Assembly (NCBI GenBank): GCA_016222905.1
Contig: JACRPZ010000056.1
Coordinates: 1-38,467, forward strand
DNA length: 38,467 nucleotides
Origin: Nitrospirota bacterium
Lineage (GTDB): Bacteria; Nitrospirota; Thermodesulfovibrionia; UBA6902
Direction of reading: 5' to 3'
Each line of letters opens with the position of its first letter. Position 1 is the first letter of the stretch. A model generated the notes under the pieces. That model did not search any database. It had not been told where the DNA came from and saw only the letters and a program-made list of their open reading frames with translations. Of the stretch, positions 12,680 through 25,817 are shown piece by piece. The position numbers and the translations under genes are program-made.

Positions 12680-15600
12680 TTAAACTACTGCTTCTTCCAC
12701 TGGTCCATAAACCTCATCAATAGCCTTTTGTATCTCTATAGTTTTCTGAATTGAGGTGACTATCCTGCAATAGGTCTGGATCTCATCAAGGGATAGAACC
12801 CGTTCCTTTCTGTCCTTCAGCCATTTATCACAAACCTGATAACCTCCGATTTGATAACTCCATACCGTCCCTGAAATACCTTCAAAGTATTGTGTCTTAT
12901 TGATATAAACACGGCCACCCCTCACCCAACCCTCTCCCCCAAGGGGCGAGGGACAAAATGTTTCCCTCCATTGAGGGGAGGGATTAAGGGAGGGTGTGTA
13001 TTTCGGTTTCTCTACCCTGTTATCTCCTTTTCCTTGAAATCTTGCTATTGGTGAATCAAGTTCCTGTGATTTTAAGAGATGCAAATCAACAAGTTTGTTT
13101 CCGTATTCAGACATCTTTTTGAATAGCTTATAGTCCTTAGTAAACGGCACCCTCGGAAAGTCTATCTTAAGGAACTCTGCATATTTTATCCTGTATGTCT
13201 CTGAATAAAGGACAGCATAAATGTAATAGAAGATTTCTTCAGGAGAAGGGGTTTTCTTAAATGCCTTGGATAATTTTTCGACAACTTCAGCAGACAGGTT
13301 TGGTTTCTTTAGGACATACTCTGCCTCAGGTTCAAAAAGCATCATGGCAGAACCAAAAGATTTCTTTTTGGCTTTTCCATGTTCACAATAGATATAAAGA
13401 GGAAATAGAGAACATATCCCTCTATTACTTACAAAAAATCTGTTATCAATAATATCCTTTGTACAGAAAACATAATTATATGTTTTGACTGAATCATAAA
13501 CAAATTGACGCATAGCAACCAATCCTAAATTATCGTCGAAGAAGTTTTTCATTATCTCCATTCTGTCCCTGTCAATAAGGTTCGACAGATAACAGATACT
13601 TCTATTATCAAAAGGACGATAAGAATAAGCTCTTATATGCTCTTTCCAATTTATTTTCTTTACAGCATTTCTTTTAGTTCCTATCTCAAAATCTGTTGTC
13701 CCCTTTAGATTCAATGATTGAGTAATCAAATCATCTGGCAAGTTACTTGTAAAGGTTCTCATCCTCCGTTTGATTTCTTCATCAGTAAAGCCAATCACAA
13801 GATTGTCTCTATGAGTTTTAACCCCACCGGAAGATTTATCAAATATTTCAGATATTGACGTAAATTTGTCGTATGCAGCTTGCAATGAAAAATCTTTTTC
13901 CACAAAGAAGTAATATGGCTCGACAGACTTTAATGTTTTCCACTTCGTTGTGTAAGAATCGGATTTGCCCAAAAAACCGTATTTGTTCTCTCTCAATCCA
14001 TAGACATCATGATAAAGGATCCTGCATTTTTTCCCTTTCCGTTCTTTTTTGATGAATAAGACGATAGAAACGCCCTGCTGAATGTCAAAGACGTTCTCAT
14101 CCTTGCTTCCATCAGGCGCTTTTTCTCCGATACGGCTGTTACCGTGAAGATTCAGAATATAAATATCATCGAAGCTATCAAGAAGTTTCTTCCTCATGCC
14201 TCTGTGAATCAGCCCTGACAAGTAGGAATTGTTTGTTATCATTCCTATTATCCCTTTGCCGTCTTGTTCAATCTTCCAATGTGCAAATCTGATAAATTTT
14301 ATATAGTCATCCGACAAAGGCTGAATGTTTCTCTCAGTTCTGACATCCTCTTTATAGACATCCATCTCCTGTTCAATAAAGTCAGATTTATTTACAGAAC
14401 TTACCGAATACGGAGGATTTCCCAAAATTACCAATATCGGCTGTTCCTTCTTTACCTTTCCTGCGAGGTGTGATTCCTCAGACAAAGATGACATTCCAGG
14501 AAGTTTTGTTTCTGGCAGCTCTTCCATCTCAAGGGTATTGGTAAGATAGAGCTTCACTCTGTCATCCTTCTGCAACCTATATCCTAATTCTTCAAGCAGG
14601 AAGGACATTTTCAAATGCCCGATAGCATATGGTGCCATCATTAATTCAAAGGCATAGAAGTTTTTCAGGATATGGTCTTTGATAAAATTCTTTCTGCCTC
14701 CCTCTCCAAACTTGGAAACAAACTCATCAACCGCAAGTTTTGCAGTCTCTGCTAAAAAGGTCAGCGTTCCTGCTGCCGGGTCTAATACGGTCACGTTTTT
14801 ATCTGCGAATCCATCAGGTTTATTGAACTGTTCTTTCAGGATGCTATGCAGGGAACGGACTATATAGGAAACAACAGGTTCAGGAGTGTAATAAACTCCC
14901 CTCATCTGCCTCGTTTTGGGGTCATACTCTGTAAGAAATGTTTCGTAGAAATGTATGATGGGGTCTTTGCCCTTGCCCTCATGAAAGTATTCATGAAGGA
15001 TTTTGTTTATATCCGTGACAGACAGGATTTCTGAAATGTCATCAATGATCCATTCCATCTGTTGCGGAAGCGACCCCAATGAAACAAATTGAAAGACATC
15101 TCTCAGGATGCCGATTGTCTGAGGGATATTGTCATAGGCAAGTTTCCTGTTAAAGCCATTCTCTGAACGGGTACGGGCTGCAAACAATCCATAAGTAATT
15201 GTCTGTGCATAAAGGTCAGAAAATTCATCCTCTGTGAGACTGCTGATAAGGTATTCTTTGAAAGCTGTATAGAACCCCTGAATAACTCCCCCTTCGCCCC
15301 CTCTTAAATTAAGAGGGGGATGGGGGGCGTTATCTCCTTCAAATGCCAACGCTACAACATCCTTAAGAAACCGTGTTCTTTTGGCAAGTTCAATTGCAAG
15401 GGTCTTGGCGTTATATACTTTTGGAATGGAGAAGGAAAAGAACTTTTCAAATAGCTGAAGAAGTTCAGCTTCCTTCTCAACGCTTGGCGTGATTTTCAGT
15501 TTATTGAGTATTACAGGTCTGCCGATAAGGACTTTATCAATCATCTGTCCATTACGGTAAAGTCTGAACTCAAGGAAATTTGTAAGTATCAGGTTTGGGA

Positions 15601-15931
15601 AGGTATGCAGGTATCTTTTAAGCTGTTCTGAATCTTCTATACGGTCAAGGTTTTCAACTGAGGGGTCTTTTGCCTCAATGTATCCTGTTATATGTTGTTT
15701 GCCGTCCCATATCCTGAAATCAGGATTTCCTGCCTCTGTCTTTTTCGGCAGTACAGTTACATGACTCTTTTTCTTGCCGATTGAACTGCAATATTCTTCA
15801 AACAGGTCTTTCAGGACAGGGTAATAACTTTCTTCCCTTGCGTCGCCGCGCTTGCTGGTTTCAGCAATTTGTTTTAAATAAGTTTTAAGCATTCTCGAAT
15901 TATAGGTGGATTTGATAATCATTATAACCAT
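12680..15931 (-). CDS. Type IIG/ISP-like restriction-modification enzyme
   Basis: 1083 residues combining several activities. The N-terminal nuclease has a PD-(D/E)xK-like pattern (NPD71, then E86-A-K88 in GYIEAKDP). A helical connector follows, then a gamma-type adenine methyltransferase with motif I DPAAGTLTFLAETAK (DPACGTGT in most relatives) and motif IV GNPPYS. The C-terminus 'NKTQYFEGI...QIGGYQVCDKWLKDR' matches the target-recognition end of LlaBIII/type ISP enzymes. No helicase domain is present, so cleavage is probably like type IIG rather than translocating type ISP. Two stretches (about residues 199-215 and 979-1006) are translated GC-rich repeat DNA and look like in-frame insertions. 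The start is uncertain; ATG codons at residues 4 and 14 are alternatives and no strong ribosome site is seen. Confidence 0.88.
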   Translation of the reverse strand: MVIMIIKSTYNSRMLKTYLKQIAETSKRGDAREESYYPVLKDLFEEYCSSIGKKKSHVTVLPKKTEAGNPDFRIWDGKQHITGYIEAKDPSVENLDRIEDSEQLKRYLHTFPNLILTNFLEFRLYRNGQMIDKVLIGRPVILNKLKITPSVEKEAELLQLFEKFFSFSIPKVYNAKTLAIELAKRTRFLKDVVALAFEGDNAPHPPLNLRGGEGGVIQGFYTAFKEYLISSLTEDEFSDLYAQTITYGLFAARTRSENGFNRKLAYDNIPQTIGILRDVFQFVSLGSLPQQMEWIIDDISEILSVTDINKILHEYFHEGKGKDPIIHFYETFLTEYDPKTRQMRGVYYTPEPVVSYIVRSLHSILKEQFNKPDGFADKNVTVLDPAAGTLTFLAETAKLAVDEFVSKFGEGGRKNFIKDHILKNFYAFELMMAPYAIGHLKMSFLLEELGYRLQKDDRVKLYLTNTLEMEELPETKLPGMSSLSEESHLAGKVKKEQPILVILGNPPYSVSSVNKSDFIEQEMDVYKEDVRTERNIQPLSDDYIKFIRFAHWKIEQDGKGIIGMITNNSYLSGLIHRGMRKKLLDSFDDIYILNLHGNSRIGEKAPDGSKDENVFDIQQGVSIVLFIKKERKGKKCRILYHDVYGLRENKYGFLGKSDSYTTKWKTLKSVEPYYFFVEKDFSLQAAYDKFTSISEIFDKSSGGVKTHRDNLVIGFTDEEIKRRMRTFTSNLPDDLITQSLNLKGTTDFEIGTKRNAVKKINWKEHIRAYSYRPFDNRSICYLSNLIDRDRMEIMKNFFDDNLGLVAMRQFVYDSVKTYNYVFCTKDIIDNRFFVSNRGICSLFPLYIYCEHGKAKKKSFGSAMMLFEPEAEYVLKKPNLSAEVVEKLSKAFKKTPSPEEIFYYIYAVLYSETYRIKYAEFLKIDFPRVPFTKDYKLFKKMSEYGNKLVDLHLLKSQELDSPIARFQGKGDNRVEKPKYTPSLNPSPQWRETFCPSPLGGEGWVRGGRVYINKTQYFEGISGTVWSYQIGGYQVCDKWLKDRKERVLSLDEIQTYCRIVTSIQKTIEIQKAIDEVYGPVEEAVV
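12914..12996. repeat. GC-rich palindromic repeat inserted in-frame in the restriction enzyme gene
   Basis: Two hairpins are visible inside the coding sequence: CCCTCTCCCC paired with GGGGCGAGGG (one mismatch, loop CAA), and TCCCTCC paired with GGAGGGA. The ends CACCC and GGGTG also pair. On the coding strand it reads as 'CPSPLGGEGWVRGG' preceded by 'SLNPSPQWRE', a peptide type I know from translated bacterial repeats rather than from any enzyme fold. It sits between segments that look continuous in relatives (VEKPKY and RVYINKTQYF), so it is best explained as a mobile repeat that landed without breaking the frame. Confidence 0.75.
15286..15333. repeat. Second palindromic repeat within the restriction enzyme gene
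   Basis: A perfect 11-bp stem, CCCCCTCTTAA paired with TTAAGAGGGGG around a single A, with further C-run/G-run flanks. It is of the same style as the intergenic repeat at 743-828, which also contains CCCCTCTT...AAGAGGGG. On the coding strand it encodes 'APHPPLNLRGGEGG'. The reading frame passes through intact. It lies in the linker between the nuclease and methyltransferase regions (about residues 199-215). Confidence 0.75.
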
Positions 15932-16675: not shown

Positions 16676-18160
16676 CTACCCTGTGCCTGCGTACTTCTTT
16701 ATCCGCCAGTATTCCGCATTGAGCGTCTCAACAACATAATCGAGCCTGCCTGTCTTGAGCCATTTTCCGATAGCTGTAAAGAATATCAGCGGGTTCTTCA
16801 TCGCTATTGACATGAGAATCGAGTAGAAATTGACATTTCCTGAGCGCGTAAGGTAGTTCTTCCTGAAGAAATGGTTCTGCATCCTCTTGCGGATATCCCT
16901 CAGCTCTTCCTTCTTGAATGTTATCGCCATAAGCGGGAGCTCAGGCTGTCTGTGCGCCCAATTTTCAGAGAACGGGATATTCGGGTCTAGCCAGCCGTTC
17001 TTTATGGCCATATCATATATGTCCGTTCCGGGGTAAGGCGTAAGGAAATAGAATGCCGTATAATCAGCCTCAATATCCTTTGCGACCTGATAGCTCATCT
17101 CTATATCTTCACGCGTCTCTTCAGGGTTGCCGATAATGAATGTGGCAAGCGTCCTTATATCGAGTTTCTTGCAGAGCGCGAAGGATTTCTTGATCTGCTC
17201 TGTCCTGTCGCCGTGGCCGCCCTTGCCTAACACCTTCAATATCTTGGGAGAACCGCTTTCAACGCCGAAGTCAAGCTGAACAAGCCCGGACTCCTTCATC
17301 AGCTTCATTAGAGATTCATCGGTCTGGTCTACCCTGGACTGTCCGGCCCATACAACACCGAGATTCCTCCGCATAATGTCCTCACAATACTCCCTGACCC
17401 AATTCTGGTTTAGAGTAAAGGTGTCGTCACAATAGTACACTCCCTTGATGCCGTAAGTCTTATGGAGATGCTCTATCTCGTCAACAACATTCTTGACGGA
17501 ACGCCTCCTCGTCTTTCTTCCGAAAATATTATGGCTGCCGCAATAGATACACCTGTATGGGCAGCCCCTGCTTGTAACAATGGTCGTCTGGTTTTCGGTA
17601 GCATAGCCCCTGATAATGCCGGGCGGCATTAAATATGGCTTCATATCTATAAGATGGCGCGCCGGGAAAGGTATGGTGTCCAGATCCTGAATCAGGTCAC
17701 GCCTGCCGTTGTCAACTATCTTTCCGTCTTCCCTGTACATGACCCCTGTTACACCCTTGAGTCCCTCGCCCTTTCCGAGCTTTTCACAGACCTCAACCAT
17801 TGTTGCCTCGCCCTCGCCGATAACTATAAAATCAGCTCCGAACTCATTCATCGTCTCAATAGGCTTTACTGTTGTATGAACTCCGCCGAGGCAATACGGC
17901 ACATTAGGGATCTCCTTCTTCAGCTTCTTCATCATAGTTAAAGACTTCTGGTATCCCACGGTCAGAAATCCCAGGCCAATAAGCTCGGGCTTGAACGCCT
18001 TGATCTCATTAATAATAGTATCGTGATATTCAGGGTCTGCGTCAAAACACTGAACAGTATGGCCTGCCTGCTCCAGCATGGCTGCCACATACATCAGACC
18101 TAACGGCGGGACAACGTTGTTACCGTCCAGCACCTGTGAGTTGATTAATGTGACTCTCAT
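16676..18160 (-). CDS. B12-binding radical SAM enzyme
   Basis: 494 residues. The N-terminal part (about 1-140, 'NSQVLDGNNVVPPLGLMYVAA', then 'LGFLTVGYQ' and 'GEGEATMVE') is the cobalamin-binding fold of the class B/BchE-like enzymes. The radical SAM core starts at 'TSRGCPYRCIYCGS' with cluster cysteines C200, C204 and C207, followed by 'YYCDDTFTLN' and 'FGVESGSPKILKVLGKGGHG'. Such enzymes methylate or cyclise unreactive carbons or phosphinates. It lies 46 bases downstream of the radical SAM-methyltransferase fusion on the same strand, so the two are probably co-expressed and may act on one substrate. The substrate is unknown; cyclase and lipid-modifying homologues cannot be told apart here. 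Confidence 0.88.
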   Translation of the reverse strand: MRVTLINSQVLDGNNVVPPLGLMYVAAMLEQAGHTVQCFDADPEYHDTIINEIKAFKPELIGLGFLTVGYQKSLTMMKKLKKEIPNVPYCLGGVHTTVKPIETMNEFGADFIVIGEGEATMVEVCEKLGKGEGLKGVTGVMYREDGKIVDNGRRDLIQDLDTIPFPARHLIDMKPYLMPPGIIRGYATENQTTIVTSRGCPYRCIYCGSHNIFGRKTRRRSVKNVVDEIEHLHKTYGIKGVYYCDDTFTLNQNWVREYCEDIMRRNLGVVWAGQSRVDQTDESLMKLMKESGLVQLDFGVESGSPKILKVLGKGGHGDRTEQIKKSFALCKKLDIRTLATFIIGNPEETREDIEMSYQVAKDIEADYTAFYFLTPYPGTDIYDMAIKNGWLDPNIPFSENWAHRQPELPLMAITFKKEELRDIRKRMQNHFFRKNYLTRSGNVNFYSILMSIAMKNPLIFFTAIGKWLKTGRLDYVVETLNAEYWRIKKYAGTG

Positions 18161-18206
18161 AATTATTTCCCCTTAGTTATATTGTGTGTTATCTTGTATT
18201 TTCTTC

Positions 18207-20627
18207 TTATCCGCAGCAGGAACATTTGGTTCCCTGCGGTTTAGGCTTGGAACCCTTCATTGTAACTGAATAAAAATTAAGATACTCAACTTTTTTGTAA
18301 AGATAATTCCGAGTTAGAGAGACATCAGGAAAACCGGCTTTTTCAGCGGAGTATTTAAATCTTTTATCTGTTAACGCCCCTGAAAGACAGGCGCTCCATA
18401 ACTCTTTGTCCCTCTTCATATATCCCGGAACAGGTTTATCAGAGACTATATCGGATATCACAAACCGGCCGCCCGGCTTAAGCACTCTGTATATCTCACC
18501 AAGCACGCCAGTCTTGTCCTCTGTCAGGTTTATGACGCAGTTGGAGATAACAAGGTCAATTGAATTATCCTCAGCAGGCAGTGTGACTATATCGCTTTTT
18601 CTAAATTCAACATTGCTGTAACCGAGGGATTCAGCAACCTTCTTTGCGCTCTCTGTTGCCTTATCGACCATCTCATCAGTCATGTCCACTCCTATTACCC
18701 TGCCGTTCTTCCCTAACTTTTTGGCGGCAATAAAGCAGTCAATGCCTCCGCCTGAGCCGAGATCAAGGATCGTTTCTCCCTCTTTAATATCGGCAAGCGC
18801 GGCAGGATTGCCGCATCCGTATGACACCTCAAGGACCTCGTTCGGGATGTGCTTAAGGTCTTCAGGGCTATATCCTGTAGGGCAGTAGTAATCTTCAACA
18901 GGCGCATTTGCAGCCTTTGAAAATTTCTTCTTGACCGTCTTTGTTACATGGCCCTTTATCTCAGGCTTGCAGACGTTCTCATCATCCTCAACATCAATAG
19001 CCAGCACGCAGGAGCAGTGATAACACCCCACTTCATTTTTGGCATCTATTGATTTAACAGAGTTATCAAGATATGAGGGAAGCTTTGAGTCCATGGCATT
19101 GAATACATTCGGCGTCATATAGCCGTCAATGTTCTCTGCTACCACGCCTTCTGATGCCATATCCCACAGGATATCCTCAAATAGGGATTTATATGTAGAG
19201 CAGTAAGGGTCTAAAGCCTTTATTGAACCCTTGCCTGTATCAACCTCGCTTGAATAAAAACTGTGAGATGTGCAGCCGCCGCCGCAGAAGAACCTGAGGT
19301 TGCAGGCGCTGCATTCTGTCTTGTCCTGTATGCTGTTGCCCCTGCCGCATCTCATGACATCCGAATTCAGCCAGATGTCCTTTAACGGCTTCTCCAGTAT
19401 GGAGCCGGCGTCAAAGCGGCTGTCGCCGTTAAGCGAACCGCACGGATAAACATGTCCGTCCGCATTGACACATATCTTCTCATAGCAGTTGTTACAGAGG
19501 TCATTCTTTCTCCCCCTTTTATAGCGCACGCGCGCCTTAAGGGATTCCTCATTGTCAACTATTACCTCCTGCTCTTCATATACTGATCTCTGCTCCTTCA
19601 TTATCTGCGTTATTTTCTCAGGAGGCACATAAAGTTCTTCCACGTTGCTTGCGCCTCGTCCCTTGGCATGCATCCAGAGCATATGGTGGTCTTTTACGCC
19701 GAGTGTGGACAGGAATTCGGAGGTTTCTTTTATTTTATCTTCATTGTATTTGCTGATAGCGGTAGATACGATGGGGATTATGCCGATGCTGATAAGTCTT
19801 TTAATGCCGTCTACGGTCTTGTTAAATGTCCCTTCCCCGCGCAGACTGTCATGGGTTTCAGCATCAGGGCCTTCAAGGCTTACCTGAAGAATGAGTCTCG
19901 GGCTCTTTAATTTATCAAGAGCTGCTATCTTCTTGTCATCAAAGAGCGTGGCGTTTGTAAGCACGATTAATTCTTTAGCCTTCTCCACGGTAATATATTT
20001 AATTACTTCAAATATATCATCCTTAATGAAGGGTTCTCCGCCTGTTATATAAAACCGTTTGACTCCAAGCTCTATAGCGTCGTCAACGAGTTTTTTTATC
20101 TCCGCCGTGGTAAGTTCCCTTTCGAGCTTTTTGCCTGCGCTTACGAGGCAGTGTTTACACTTCAGGTTGCATGCAAGCGTTGTATATATCCATAGCTCTT
20201 CCAGCTTGTCAGGCGCGATCGCCTTGTCCCTGCCCGTATATTCCGATCTGGCAAACGGCGCATCGGAGATAAATTCCAGCGTCCCGGCTGCGCTTATAAA
20301 GTCCGAAACCTCTTTGCTGATATCTTCTGTTTTGCCGTTGCTTGCGCCGTATTTGTCTGAAAAAGCACGCTGAATATCGGACAGTGTGTGTTTGCCGTCA
20401 CAGAGTTTCATTATCTCCAGACCTGTCCGGTTTACACTCATCCAGTTAGGATATTCAGGATCAATAAGAAGGTGCACGCCGTCTCTCTCTTTTTCAATAT
20501 AGAGAGTGGAATAGAGCCTGTCATCTTCCTTAAAGGTCTTCAGCTCAGTCTCATTGACATGCCACTTTTCGAGCTGATACTGATTTATCCTTGCGTCTCT
20601 TGAGGGTTCACAGCATGATTTTGCCAT
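18207..20627 (-). CDS. PqqD-like/radical SAM/SPASM protein fused to an ArsM-like methyltransferase
   Basis: 806 residues from the ATG at 20625-20627 (CGGAG upstream). In order: a CC-containing start (MAKSCCEP); a PqqD-like winged-helix segment (about 55-120); a radical SAM core with C153, C157, C160 (CNLKCKHC) and TGGEPF; a SPASM domain with cysteines C378 to C396 and the C439-x2-C442-x5-C448-x3-C452 set plus C476; a cysteine-rich linker (CYHCSC at 535-540); then a methyltransferase (LDLGSGGG at 621-628). The methyltransferase has the SNCVINL and CLSGAL cysteines (C697, C747) that bind arsenite in ArsM, and ends CSCCG. Known ArsM methylates trivalent arsenic; here the fused radical SAM part suggests a further carbon-bond reaction. 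The substrate is not known. Confidence 0.85.
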   Translation of the reverse strand: MAKSCCEPSRDARINQYQLEKWHVNETELKTFKEDDRLYSTLYIEKERDGVHLLIDPEYPNWMSVNRTGLEIMKLCDGKHTLSDIQRAFSDKYGASNGKTEDISKEVSDFISAAGTLEFISDAPFARSEYTGRDKAIAPDKLEELWIYTTLACNLKCKHCLVSAGKKLERELTTAEIKKLVDDAIELGVKRFYITGGEPFIKDDIFEVIKYITVEKAKELIVLTNATLFDDKKIAALDKLKSPRLILQVSLEGPDAETHDSLRGEGTFNKTVDGIKRLISIGIIPIVSTAISKYNEDKIKETSEFLSTLGVKDHHMLWMHAKGRGASNVEELYVPPEKITQIMKEQRSVYEEQEVIVDNEESLKARVRYKRGRKNDLCNNCYEKICVNADGHVYPCGSLNGDSRFDAGSILEKPLKDIWLNSDVMRCGRGNSIQDKTECSACNLRFFCGGGCTSHSFYSSEVDTGKGSIKALDPYCSTYKSLFEDILWDMASEGVVAENIDGYMTPNVFNAMDSKLPSYLDNSVKSIDAKNEVGCYHCSCVLAIDVEDDENVCKPEIKGHVTKTVKKKFSKAANAPVEDYYCPTGYSPEDLKHIPNEVLEVSYGCGNPAALADIKEGETILDLGSGGGIDCFIAAKKLGKNGRVIGVDMTDEMVDKATESAKKVAESLGYSNVEFRKSDIVTLPAEDNSIDLVISNCVINLTEDKTGVLGEIYRVLKPGGRFVISDIVSDKPVPGYMKRDKELWSACLSGALTDKRFKYSAEKAGFPDVSLTRNYLYKKVEYLNFYSVTMKGSKPKPQGTKCSCCG

Positions 20628-21987: not shown

Positions 21988-22569
21988 ATGAGCGATAGCA
22001 ATTCGCCCTCCATTATATCTGTTACAGGTTCTCACAGCAATGTTGGCAAGACAACGCTATGCTCGATTCTTCTGAATGAGCTTAAAGGCTTTGGGGCGGT
22101 CAAATTCACAAAGACCGAGATGTATACCTCTATTATAGATGACCTTGAGATACTGAATCAAAAAGGCAAAGACACTGCTGTAATGTTCGAAGCCGGTGCT
22201 GAAAAGGTCGTCTGGATCAAAGGCACGCGAGACGGGCTCAAAGATGCCCTGGACATTGCTTTCAGCAAGCTTTACGGACTTAAAGGAGTTGTTGTTGAAG
22301 GCAATAGTCCTGTGGATTTTTTAAATCCCTCTCTGCTAATATTCATCATAAATCCGGATGGGGAGATCAAGCCGTCGGCCGCAGAAGTCTGCAAAAGGGC
22401 GGAAATAGTGATCATCAATTCGGATAAAGAGAGTAAAGAGCCGGACTTTTCAACCGCCATATTCCCGGAACACGCCGTATTCTTCCGGATAAATCTGAAA
22501 AACAAGGAAGGTGAGGTTGGTGAATTCCTCTCCCATGTCAAAAGAAAAATCATTAGAGACAAGGATTAA
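21988..22569 (+). CDS. mobB: MobB-like P-loop NTPase
   Basis: 193 residues. The P-loop GSHSNVGKTTL (about 14-24) is followed by strand-helix repeats with 'GFGAVKFTKTEMY', as in MobB proteins that bind guanine nucleotide and assist molybdopterin-guanine dinucleotide synthesis. It is a little longer than E. coli MobB, and the later motifs differ ('GLKGVVVEGNSPVDFL', where V-E-G is the Walker B-like turn). A small cysteine protein overlaps its 3' end. The exact partner (MobA) is not in the window; a role in activating a molybdenum or tungsten enzyme is likely, but the alternative of an unrelated SIMIBI NTPase remains. Confidence 0.7.
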   Translation: MSDSNSPSIISVTGSHSNVGKTTLCSILLNELKGFGAVKFTKTEMYTSIIDDLEILNQKGKDTAVMFEAGAEKVVWIKGTRDGLKDALDIAFSKLYGLKGVVVEGNSPVDFLNPSLLIFIINPDGEIKPSAAEVCKRAEIVIINSDKESKEPDFSTAIFPEHAVFFRINLKNKEGEVGEFLSHVKRKIIRDKD

Positions 22570-22711
22570 AAATACGGCTTCAAATGGTATAATAACCTGC
22601 GCCGCGCTGAGAAAGATTGCAGAAGAGATAAACGTAAGTTACGGCGAAGCCGGAAAGGCCGCGGACAACTTAAAGATAAAGGTCAGGAATTGCGACCTCG
22701 GATGCTTTTAA
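22535..22711 (+). CDS. Small conserved-looking protein with C-terminal CDLGCF
   Basis: 58 residues from ATG 22535, which overlaps the mobB end by 35 bases in another frame. A longer start at 22511 is possible. Helix-turn-helix-like sequence 'ITCAALRKIAEEINVSYGEAG' is followed by 'AADNLKIKVRNCDLGCF'. The paired cysteines at the very end recall small proteins often found beside molybdenum cofactor genes, though I cannot cite a family. It might be a regulator or a metal-binding partner of the MobB-like protein. The overlap shows that they are translated together. Confidence 0.6.
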   Translation: MSKEKSLETRIKNTASNGIITCAALRKIAEEINVSYGEAGKAADNLKIKVRNCDLGCF

Positions 22712-22736
22712 TTCGCCCTGACGAACTTAATCCATA

Positions 22737-23558
22737 ATGGAAATAAATGTTCTTTTATTTGAATTAGCGCTCACATTCTATTTTATAGCTGCGATCATGG
22801 GCGTTATTGAGCTTTTCAGGCGGCGGAAGACCGTTTCAAAAACCACCGGCTATCTTGCTTTAGCTGGATTTCTCTTTCATTCCGTAAATATTATCGCCAG
22901 ATACATCAAGGGCGGACATATTCCTGTCACAAACCTGCATGAGGCGGCATCCTTCATGTCATGGTGTATCGTGCTCCTATTCCTCTTACATGAATACCGC
23001 TATAAGCTCGGCCTGCTCAGTTCCTTTATAATGCCTATCGTCCTGATCTTTATGCTCTCCTCCTCAATCTTCCCAAGAGAGATAAAAGAGATCAGCCCTT
23101 TGCTCAGAAGTTACTGGTTTGGAATTCATGTAATTCTGGCTTTTATGGGGAATGCTGCCTTTGCAATGGCATGCGGCATCGGCATCATGTACCTGATACA
23201 GGAGAGATATGTAAAATCAAAGCGCCTGAGCGGACTCTTTCTGAAACTCCCGAGCCTTCAGTCCCTTGAGGAGATCAACTATCATCTGATAACTATGGGA
23301 TTCCCGCTCTTGACCCTTGCCATAATATCAGGAGTTATCTGGGCCAATACCGCATGGGGCACATACTGGAGGTGGGACCCAAAGGAAGTATGGTCACTTA
23401 TAACATGGCTTATTTATGCAATTGTGCTGCACCTCAGGCTCTCAATTGGCTGGAGGGGTAAAAAAGCTGCCATCCTCTCTATACTGGGCTTTGCCCTGGT
23501 TATGTTTACCTTTTTCGGCGTTACATTACTCTTGAAAGGAATTCACGTTTTTAATTAA
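22737..23558 (+). CDS. ccsA: CcsA/HemX-type cytochrome c assembly membrane protein
   Basis: 273 residues with about eight membrane helices. The haem-handling tryptophan-rich motif WGTYWRWDPKEVWSLITW is present, with flanking histidines (for example H near 'INYHLI' and 'VLHLRL') placed as in CcsA. It belongs to the WWD family that carries haem to apocytochromes c on the outer face of the membrane. It is directly followed by hemA, an arrangement also seen where HemX sits in front of hemA. The link to cytochrome synthesis matches the cbb3 cluster earlier in the window. A CcsB/ResB partner is not in the window. Confidence 0.88.
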   Translation: MEINVLLFELALTFYFIAAIMGVIELFRRRKTVSKTTGYLALAGFLFHSVNIIARYIKGGHIPVTNLHEAASFMSWCIVLLFLLHEYRYKLGLLSSFIMPIVLIFMLSSSIFPREIKEISPLLRSYWFGIHVILAFMGNAAFAMACGIGIMYLIQERYVKSKRLSGLFLKLPSLQSLEEINYHLITMGFPLLTLAIISGVIWANTAWGTYWRWDPKEVWSLITWLIYAIVLHLRLSIGWRGKKAAILSILGFALVMFTFFGVTLLLKGIHVFN

Positions 23559-23599
23559 ATCACCCATTGCCATAACGATTGTTGGATCCTGTTTAAACT

Positions 23600-24880
23600 A
23601 TGCAGATCTTAGTCATCGGCCTTAACCATAAAACAGCGAGCATTGAAGTTAGAGAGAAGTTCGCTTTTGATAATGAGAAGCTCGGAGAGGCTTTAAAAAT
23701 TCTAAAGGCCTCCGGCCTGACGTCCGAAAATGTCATACTCTCCACCTGCAACAGGGTGGAGATGTACGCAGGGGTCAAAGACCTTGATTCAGGCATAGAG
23801 GGCATCAAGGATTTCTTAGCCGGTTTTCATAATGTGCCTAAGAAAGCGCTTGAGGAGGCGCTCTTTATTCTCCACGGCAGCGAGGCGATTCGGCATGTAT
23901 TCAGGGTTGCGTCAGGGCTGGATTCAATGGTCTTGGGCGAGCCTCAGATATTAGGACAGATAAAGGATGCCTTTGATTTCTCCCTGAAGAATAAAGCTAC
24001 GGGCGCTCTTCTTAACAAGCTGATGAAGAAGACCTTCTCTGTAGCAAAGAGGACGAGAACAGAGACAGGCATAGGGAAAGGGGCTGTCAACATCAGCTAT
24101 GCCGCTGTTGAGCTGGCAAAAAAGATATTTGACGACCTGTCCACAAAGACCTTCCTCCTTATCGGCGCAGGCGAAATGGGAGAGCTTGCGGCAAAACACC
24201 TGATAAACAACGGGGTAAAGGATGTAATAGTCACAAACAGGACTTACGAGAGGGCCGAGAAACTGGCCGCAGAGTTTAACGGCAGGACTGTCAGGTTCGA
24301 AGAATATATGCAAGAACTTAAACATATAGATATAATAATCTCCGCAGTTGATGTTCGAAAACATATACTGACCAAAGAAGACATACACGGAGTTATGAAG
24401 GCAAGGAAACAGAAGCCGGTTTACATAATTGATATATCGGACCCGAGAAGCATTGACCCTGAGATTGATAAGCTTGATAATGTCTACCGTTTCGATATTG
24501 ATAACCTGCGAGGCATTGTTGACGTCAATGAAGAAGAGAGAAAGAAGGAGGCTCAGAAGGCTGAGAACATTGTAACATCAGAGGTGGAGTCATTTCTCAG
24601 GTGGCAGGAATCTCTCTCCGCTGTTCCTACAATTGTTGCGCTCAGGGATAAAGCAGAGGCGATAAGGAAAGATGAACTTGAAAAGACCCTGAAGAAGCTC
24701 GGGCCGATGGAAGAAGAGCAGATAAAGTCCATTGAGTATTTGACCATCTCAATAGTAAATAAATTAATTCACCCCCCCACATCTGCGCTTAAATCCGAAG
24801 ATGAGGATAAAGAATTACTGATAGATACTGTCAGAAAACTATATGCACTTGAGGTAAAAAAAGAGAATGAAGAAGAATAA
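23600..24880 (+). CDS. hemA: Glutamyl-tRNA reductase
   Basis: 426 residues, standard length. The N-terminal catalytic domain begins 'GLNHKTASIEVREKFAF', with the active-site cysteine C50 in STCNRVE. 'GLDSMVLGEPQILGQ' follows, then the NADPH-binding domain ('LIGAGEMGELAAKHL') and the C-terminal dimerisation helix. It reduces glutamyl-tRNA to glutamate-1-semialdehyde, the first committed step of C5-pathway tetrapyrrole synthesis. Its 3' end overlaps hemC by 14 bases, so the two are translationally coupled. Confidence 0.97.
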   Translation: MQILVIGLNHKTASIEVREKFAFDNEKLGEALKILKASGLTSENVILSTCNRVEMYAGVKDLDSGIEGIKDFLAGFHNVPKKALEEALFILHGSEAIRHVFRVASGLDSMVLGEPQILGQIKDAFDFSLKNKATGALLNKLMKKTFSVAKRTRTETGIGKGAVNISYAAVELAKKIFDDLSTKTFLLIGAGEMGELAAKHLINNGVKDVIVTNRTYERAEKLAAEFNGRTVRFEEYMQELKHIDIIISAVDVRKHILTKEDIHGVMKARKQKPVYIIDISDPRSIDPEIDKLDNVYRFDIDNLRGIVDVNEEERKKEAQKAENIVTSEVESFLRWQESLSAVPTIVALRDKAEAIRKDELEKTLKKLGPMEEEQIKSIEYLTISIVNKLIHPPTSALKSEDEDKELLIDTVRKLYALEVKKENEEE

Positions 24881-25817
24881 GATCATAATTGCAACACGCG
24901 GCAGTATGCTTGCGCTATGGCAGGCTGAATGGATAAAGGCCCAGCTTGAAGCCGGAAATCCCGGGCTCAAGGTAGAACTTAATAAGATAAAGACCACAGG
25001 GGACAAGATCCTCGATGTTCCGCTTGCCAAAGTCGGGGGCAAAGGTCTCTTTGTAAAGGAGATAGAAGAGGCGCTTTTACAGAAAACAGCGGATCTCGCC
25101 GTACACAGCATGAAAGATGTCCCAGCCGACCTTCCTGAAGAGCTTCATATTGCCGCCATATGCGAGAGAGAAGACCCGAGGGACGCTTTATTGGCCGGCG
25201 CAAAGATAAAAAGCTTTGAAGACCTGCCTCAAGGGGCGCGGATAGGAACGAGCAGCCTGAGAAGAATCTGCCAGATCATGAGCAAACGCCCTGACCTTAA
25301 AATCATACAGCTCAGGGGAAATGTTGATACAAGGATAAGAAAGCTCGATGAGGGAGAATTTGATGCGATCATTCTTGCCGCTGCAGGGGTAAAAAGGCTC
25401 GGCAAAGCAGAGAGGATCACGCAGGTCATCCCGCAGGATTTAAGTCTCTCCGCAGTAGGTCAGGGAGCAGTGGGAATAGAGTGCAGGAAGGATGATGCAT
25501 TTACAAACAGTCTCGTCAAGGCTTTAGACCATGCCGAGACCTCAGTCTGCGTAAAGGCAGAGAGGGCGTTCCTGAAGAAGCTCGAAGGGGGCTGCCAGGT
25601 TCCCATAGCCGGACATGCGAGATTAATAAATAAGGACGCAACATCAATCCCATCTTTATTTATTGAAGGTCTTGTCGGCAGCGTATCAGGAGACAGGATA
25701 ATCCGGGAATCCATAGAAGGGCCGCCCGAAGAAGCAGAATCCCTCGGCACAGCGCTTGCCGAAGACCTCCTCTCAAAAGGAGCAGGTAAAATACTCGCCG
25801 AAGTCTACGAAAGATAA
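24867..25817 (+). CDS. hemC: Hydroxymethylbilane synthase (porphobilinogen deaminase)
   Basis: 316 residues. The start 'IIIATRGSMLALWQAEWI' is the family N-terminus. The 'AVHSMKDVP' loop and the 'IGTSSLRRICQI' and 'QLRGNVDTRIRKL' arginine motifs bind the growing tetrapyrrole, and the dipyrromethane cofactor cysteine is C243 in GGCQVPI. It joins four porphobilinogen units. Overlap with hemA indicates one operon with ccsA upstream. hemB and hemD are not in the window. Confidence 0.97.
   Translation: MKKNKIIIATRGSMLALWQAEWIKAQLEAGNPGLKVELNKIKTTGDKILDVPLAKVGGKGLFVKEIEEALLQKTADLAVHSMKDVPADLPEELHIAAICEREDPRDALLAGAKIKSFEDLPQGARIGTSSLRRICQIMSKRPDLKIIQLRGNVDTRIRKLDEGEFDAIILAAAGVKRLGKAERITQVIPQDLSLSAVGQGAVGIECRKDDAFTNSLVKALDHAETSVCVKAERAFLKKLEGGCQVPIAGHARLINKDATSIPSLFIEGLVGSVSGDRIIRESIEGPPEEAESLGTALAEDLLSKGAGKILAEVYER

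Follow-up and report, generated by a model that had tools for sequence, protein, structure and literature searches.

ArsS and ArsL are the radical S-adenosylmethionine (SAM) enzymes named for carbon-arsenic bond formation in two published accounts (PMC12159101, PMC8552651). There, ArsS is described as adenosylating arsenic and cooperating with ArsM where arsenosugar synthesis begins (PMC12159101 and PMC8552651, citing Cheng 2021 and Xue 2019), and ArsL as transferring a different SAM fragment to arsenic (the same two sources, citing Cheng 2021, Yao 2024, and Xue 2019). Here, we describe a gene in a 38,467-nucleotide stretch of DNA from a Nitrospirota bacterium (contig JACRPZ010000056.1 of assembly GCA_016222905.1; the whole stretch is referred to as the window) whose 806-residue product, P0001, joins a radical SAM/SPASM unit to an ArsM methyltransferase. 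We found no description of an ArsM-radical SAM fusion in the open-access full-text literature, a search outside which subscription journals mostly fall. Judging from sequence, we think it rather likely that this single chain takes over the work of both ArsM and ArsS and synthesizes organoarsenicals on its own. It probably makes carbon-arsenic compounds by a second, unrecognized route, because it repeatedly sits where ArsS is missing, and the conserved cysteines together with the genomic context make arsenic the likely substrate.

The fusion is encoded at 18207-20627 of the window, on the minus strand like all features of this gene and its downstream partner given below, with an ATG at 20627. 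The open reading frame (ORF) and its Pfam matches bear out the architecture read in the initial annotation: a PqqD-like domain (residues 52-114, 20286-20474; PF05402, 33.5 bits), a radical SAM core (residues 148-306, 19710-20186; PF04055, 93 bits), a SPASM domain (residues 378-443), a cysteine-rich linker, the ArsM methyltransferase, and a cysteine-rich tail. An upstream TTG, which would give an 881-residue ORF, is an unlikely start; we prefer the ATG because the short N terminus with its paired cysteines at residues 5-6 (20610-20615) is kept in 33 homologs. In the C-terminal part, Methyltransf_31 matches residues 614-765, and the NCBIfam arsenite methyltransferase model NF008823 assigns 252 bits to the ArsM region (residues 576-780, 18288-18902), under its curated cut-off of 263. 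For the radical SAM part, the NCBIfam matches were NirJ2, AhbD, and StsB, all under cut-off. An AlphaFold2 model built with 17 sequences (mean predicted local distance difference test score [pLDDT] 79; predicted template modeling score 0.60) predicts two parts well, but confidence is low in the linker at residues 517-584 (18876-19079; pLDDT <50), which contains the motif CYHCSC and C553. In Foldseek searches, the methyltransferase part matched CmArsM (4fr0; E 1.9e-19, root-mean-square deviation [rmsd] 2.7), and the rest of the model matched SkfB, SuiB, CteB, anSME, and PqqE. The CmArsM match bears only indirectly on the structural check suggested in the initial annotation, namely whether the two arsenite-binding cysteines lie far from the SAM site.

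The fusion is not a chance joining, because 41 of 61 related genomes, all from a single order, carry homologs, whole or in pieces; the full-length copies are 67-75% identical, and three more matches among these relatives are ArsM only. Fused, diverged forms are present in other Nitrospirota and in archaea, and one family has the halves as separate proteins. The radical SAM family was found in 43 of 396 Nitrospirota genomes, namely clade 1 (fusions like that of the window, 22 genomes), clade 2 (fusions mostly of 820-890 residues with about 38% identity, 16 genomes, the copy in G183 being interrupted by contig ends), and the split form of family f23 (5 genomes), in which the radical SAM part stands alone and ArsM is encoded separately. 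In one archaeal phylum, 5 of 23 genomes carry fusions, and a Deltaproteobacterium (locus L105) has a radical SAM-only relative in a locus with no ArsM match. A quick tree groups the radical SAM parts together against other SPASM proteins (97% support in the Shimodaira-Hasegawa-like approximate likelihood ratio test); it does not resolve the order among the clades or the position of the split form, and L105 and several outgroup rows are long, with unsure placement. Plasmid searches gave no place covering 80% of the query. In G015, G043, G045, and L101, the fusion match breaks off around residue 713-727, within ArsM and at or close to the end of a contig.

Conservation of cysteines distinguishes the parts of the protein. 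Nearly all are invariant among 33 clade-1 fusions, including the N-terminal pair, C76, all SPASM positions (auxiliary-cluster cysteines C378-C476, 19200-19496), CYHCSC, and C553. The arsenite-type motifs singled out by the initial annotation, SNCVINL (C697) and CLSGAL (C747), are indeed kept, as are C582 and C605, each of the four being present in 32-33 of the 33. They align with CmArsM cysteines that we take to be C44, C72, C174, and C224: C582 (18882-18884) lies in the region of C44, and C605 (18813-18815, motif YGCG), C697 (18537-18539, SNCV), and C747 (18387-18389, CLSGAL) correspond to C72, C174, and C224, respectively. When 10 clade-1, 14 clade-2, and 5 archaeal fusions are aligned, every row retains, of the cysteines examined, only these four, C540, and the CxxxCxxC triad C153, C157, and C160 (20148-20171), which is invariant in all forms compared. 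C540 (19008-19010) is the sole cysteine of the radical SAM unit outside the triad that never varies across clade 1, clade 2, the archaeal fusions, and the split form; in the split radical SAM protein no further cysteine follows it, and the sequence ends HCSCVLTV or HCSCVLSV. The L105 protein stops near this point, where the alignment varies between two runs; its apparent cysteines at positions 697 and 747 were taken as alignment artifacts. The SPASM cysteines appear from the alignment to be dispensable, being intact in clade 1, mostly kept in the split form, and partly lost in clade 2 and archaea. Both termini carry the CC-containing ends first noticed in the window, but the N-terminal pair is conserved only in clade 1 (33 of 33), and the C-terminal tail (CSCCG, 18210-18224) is cysteine-rich in most homologs without a fixed position.

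The distribution of ArsS bears on the role of the fusion. The clades were defined on sequence and layout before the searches for ArsS and TIGR04282, and the ArsS counts cover the Nitrospirota genomes, the archaea being outside that search. ArsS (TIGR04167) is present in 0 of 21 genomes with clade 2 or the split form vs. 208 of 353 without the family (Fisher p 1.8e-8) and, counted by genus, in 0 of 13 vs. 83 of 145 (p 3e-5). TIGR04282 and TIGR04283 are labeled "arsenosugar biosynthesis glycosyltransferases," and the former occurs in 198 of the 208 ArsS genomes that lack the fusion family. Among ArsS-negative genomes, TIGR04282 was found in 28 of 32 with the family vs. 22 of 145 without it; TIGR04283 exceeded its cut-off in 15 of 16 clade-2, 5 of 5 split, and 4 of 5 archaeal genomes. 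An association with ArsM and these glycosyltransferases, in the place of ArsS, is thus found in clade 2, the split form, and archaea, and is weaker in clade 1.

Individual loci show the same linkage. At the archaeal locus L104, an ArsR/SmtB gene is divergent to a UbiE-like methyltransferase gene, which is followed by the fusion, a TIGR04282 gene that overlaps it (209 bits, cut-off 134), and a GT2 gene; archaeal locus L268 has the same fusion-TIGR04282-GT2 order, and the spacing at both is a few bases. In f23, the radical SAM gene overlaps a TIGR04282 gene (203 bits) at one locus, and the other brings together genes for TIGR04283 (275 bits), a VTT-domain protein, and an ArsM that shares 51-55% identity with the ArsM parts of those fusions to which it was compared. 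An in-frame TGA in the split-form matches was rejected as a selenocysteine codon; it is a stop codon, overlapped by the TIGR04282 gene. At L105, a TIGR04283 gene (185 bits, cut-off 182) comes just after the radical SAM gene, and a VTT/TMEM64-like gene lies no more than two genes from the fusion in seven clade-2 loci. In clade 1, L047 and L101 have a codirectional TIGR04282 gene some 7 kb upstream, and a GT2 gene is found just upstream in L047 and L205. The genome of the window gave no match to ArsS at E 1e-40. Among the products entertained in the initial annotation, a carbon-arsenic compound is strongly supported as a likely product by the overlapping TIGR04282/TIGR04283 genes, the split-form loci, the absence of ArsS, and the four retained ArsM cysteines.

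In clade 1, the fusion is accompanied by a B12-binding radical SAM protein. In the window, this 494-residue protein, P0002 (16676-18160; radical SAM domain at residues 194-358, 17087-17581, PF04055, 81 bits; B12-binding domain at residues 15-124, 17789-18118, PF02310, 82 bits), is separated from the fusion by 46 bp (18161-18206). Counted by hand from match tables, 36 of the 41 genomes have, immediately after the fusion, a gene with at least 63% identity to P0002; in G015, G017, G043, and G045, the two genes fall on separate contigs, the break lying at or close to a contig end, and in G014 no match was found at E 1e-80. The genes flanking the pair vary, none being common to all loci, and therefore the fusion and the B12 gene form their own unit. 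The co-occurrence anticipated in the initial annotation consequently holds within clade 1 but not beyond it: no P0002 orthologue was found in the split genomes, the clade-2 genomes, or the one archaeal genome tested, which suggests that the B12 enzyme is an add-on outside the core reaction. P0002 does not reach the NCBIfam cut-off for BchE (216 bits vs. 481) or HpnJ (201 vs. 578).

Several further observations concern this pair. In 250-bp blocks, the B12 gene has 84-96% DNA identity to copies in L031 and L032 of genus g10 and 74-84% to that in L033, and most of the fusion has 70-80% identity; the shift falls at about the gene boundary, a pattern that would fit recombination or transfer affecting only the B12 gene. 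L069 and L070 (genomes G012 and G025) contain an additional B12 radical SAM gene with 64-66% identity to P0002. In its company are a further gene for a B12 radical SAM enzyme and one for a class-III aminotransferase, and nearby is the gene of a large membrane protein that groups with a protein encoded upstream of the fusion in L047. Genes named by eye as MobB-like, cytochrome c assembly, HemA, and HemC (21988-25817) adjoin the pair in the window, L037, and L049, which represent three genomes of two families; they are divergent to the pair in the window and L049 and codirectional in L037.

In the reaction we propose, the ArsM half would bind As(III) through its cysteines and methylate it from SAM, as its fold and conserved cysteines suggest. 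The radical SAM half, which is SPASM/PqqD-like and not of the ArsS family, would then transfer a SAM-derived radical to the methylated trivalent arsenic. The transferred group would most likely be 5′-deoxyadenosyl, given the ArsS slot that the fusion occupies, and C540 is a candidate arsenic-handling residue for the radical step. An arsenosugar-type pathway involving the TIGR04282/TIGR04283 glycosyltransferases would then take up the product, as the linkage seen in other clades indicates, and presumably also in the window genome. We speculate that in clade 1 the B12 enzyme may tailor the product, for example its sugar part. A broader proposal, which we regard as doubtful, is that of a second, independently assembled arsenosugar-type pathway, with ArsM and a non-ArsS SPASM radical SAM enzyme as one protein, to which, in one order of Nitrospirota, a B12 enzyme has been added that rebuilds the arsenic-linked sugar into an undescribed class of organoarsenical.

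A number of points weigh against a synthase that combines ArsM and ArsS. ArsS is present in 11 of 22 clade-1 genomes, and there is no simple replacement in that clade; because half of these genomes also have ArsS, the clade-1 fusion may make a different organoarsenical. The co-occurrence statistics account for phylogeny only by the genus count, and the arsenosugar label of TIGR04282, a hypothetical-equivalog model, appears to rest on association. In the window genome, the TIGR04282 gene (contig C57) adjoins a MoeA-like gene, away from the fusion, and there is no TIGR04283 match at E 1e-25. The ArsM domain falls short of its family cut-off, and the radical SAM half is closer to peptide and heme enzymes than to ArsS.

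This last point bears on the alternative that survives best, although we consider it unlikely, in which the ArsM half methylates arsenic and the radical SAM half transfers another SAM fragment, such as 3-amino-3-carboxypropyl as in ArsL, or couples arsenic to another acceptor, giving a product other than an arsenosugar. Because the sequence of the radical SAM half does not resemble ArsS, homology gives no indication of which group is transferred, and the cysteine and co-occurrence evidence suits any carbon-arsenic product. Transfer of the aminocarboxypropyl group to arsenic does exist, as one account reports for ArsL (PMC8552651). The linkage, however, is to TIGR04282/TIGR04283, and TIGR04282 tracks ArsS across the phylum.

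The structural matches to SkfB, SuiB, CteB, and anSME, and the combination of PqqD with SPASM, which is a usual layout for ribosomally synthesized and post-translationally modified peptides, would suit peptide maturation, with a PqqD-like leader binder, a radical SAM/SPASM cross-linker, and the ArsM-like domain and B12 enzyme as methylases. A scan of 30 loci out to 1.2 kb from the pair, however, revealed no ORF of 18-90 residues that looked convincingly conserved as its own gene, and the loss of SPASM cysteines in clade 2, the retention of all four arsenite-type cysteines, and the glycosyltransferase neighbors elsewhere also argue against a modified-peptide substrate, which was among the early suggestions for this locus and now seems improbable. 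We would likewise give little credence to action on another metalloid or thiophile (selenium, antimony, tellurium, or bismuth) through ArsM-type thiolate binding. ArsM relatives do include selenoprotein families (NF041536, NF041537, and NF047649), and no ars resistance genes were recognized beside the fusion in the window, but relatives have the ArsR/SmtB regulator and arsenosugar-labeled genes, and the four CmArsM-type cysteines are kept. Tetrapyrrole work by an AhbD/NirJ-like radical SAM protein and a BchE-like B12 enzyme, to which the near-matches to NirJ2, AhbD, and BchE and the heme genes adjoining the pair in three genomes might point, is very improbable, since all three models stay under cut-off, heme neighbors occur in only 3 of about 38 loci, the methyltransferase is ArsM-like and no porphyrin methylase, and clade 2 is without the B12 orthologue in the genomes tested.

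Elsewhere in the window genome, a separate ArsM (G000:C34:25646-26446) scores 331 bits to NF008823, above the cut-off; a TGA in it was read as a stop. In the window itself, 12680-15931 encodes a 1083-residue methylase/restriction-like protein with two stretches (LNLRGGEGG, PSPLGGEGWVRGG) resembling in-frame copies of a dispersed repeat. An Rfam scan of the window gave no match over gathering scores, and promoter-like (12 vs. 6.8 in shuffles) and terminator-like sites (3 vs. 4.4) included none judged reliable.

If the fusion is an organoarsenical synthase, complex organoarsenicals would be expected from a wider range of organisms, including many Nitrospirota and some archaea, and a single protein, amenable to expression and assay by itself, would contain both the methylation and the radical activity. 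Its methyltransferase resembles ArsM proteins (CmArsM, CrArsM, and human AS3MT) in fold (rmsd 2.7 to 4fr0) and four aligned cysteines and differs from them in being joined C-terminally to a radical SAM/SPASM unit and in its NF008823 score (252 vs. 263 bits). The fusion shares with ArsS a genomic association with ArsM, TIGR04282, and TIGR04283 and a radical SAM unit that ends near a conserved cysteine (selenocysteine in some ArsS), whereas ArsS belongs to another radical SAM subfamily and is encoded by its own, shorter gene, and the window genome has no TIGR04167 match. ArsL is likewise a radical SAM enzyme that works with ArsM to form a carbon-arsenic bond, according to PMC8552651, but it is not one of the 25 top-ranking NCBIfam matches to the fusion, and P0002 scores 55 bits against the ArsL cut-off of 450. 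SkfB, SuiB, and CteB (sactipeptide and related maturases) and PqqE share the fold of the radical SAM/SPASM half, from which the fusion departs in its ArsM domain, the lack of a conserved precursor peptide, and SPASM cysteines that are dispensable in relatives. The B12-type radical SAM enzymes HpnJ, BchE, and AprD4 are closest to P0002 (by the HpnJ and BchE scores and structure 6fd2), which reaches no family cut-off and, unlike them, is paired with the fusion in clade 1.

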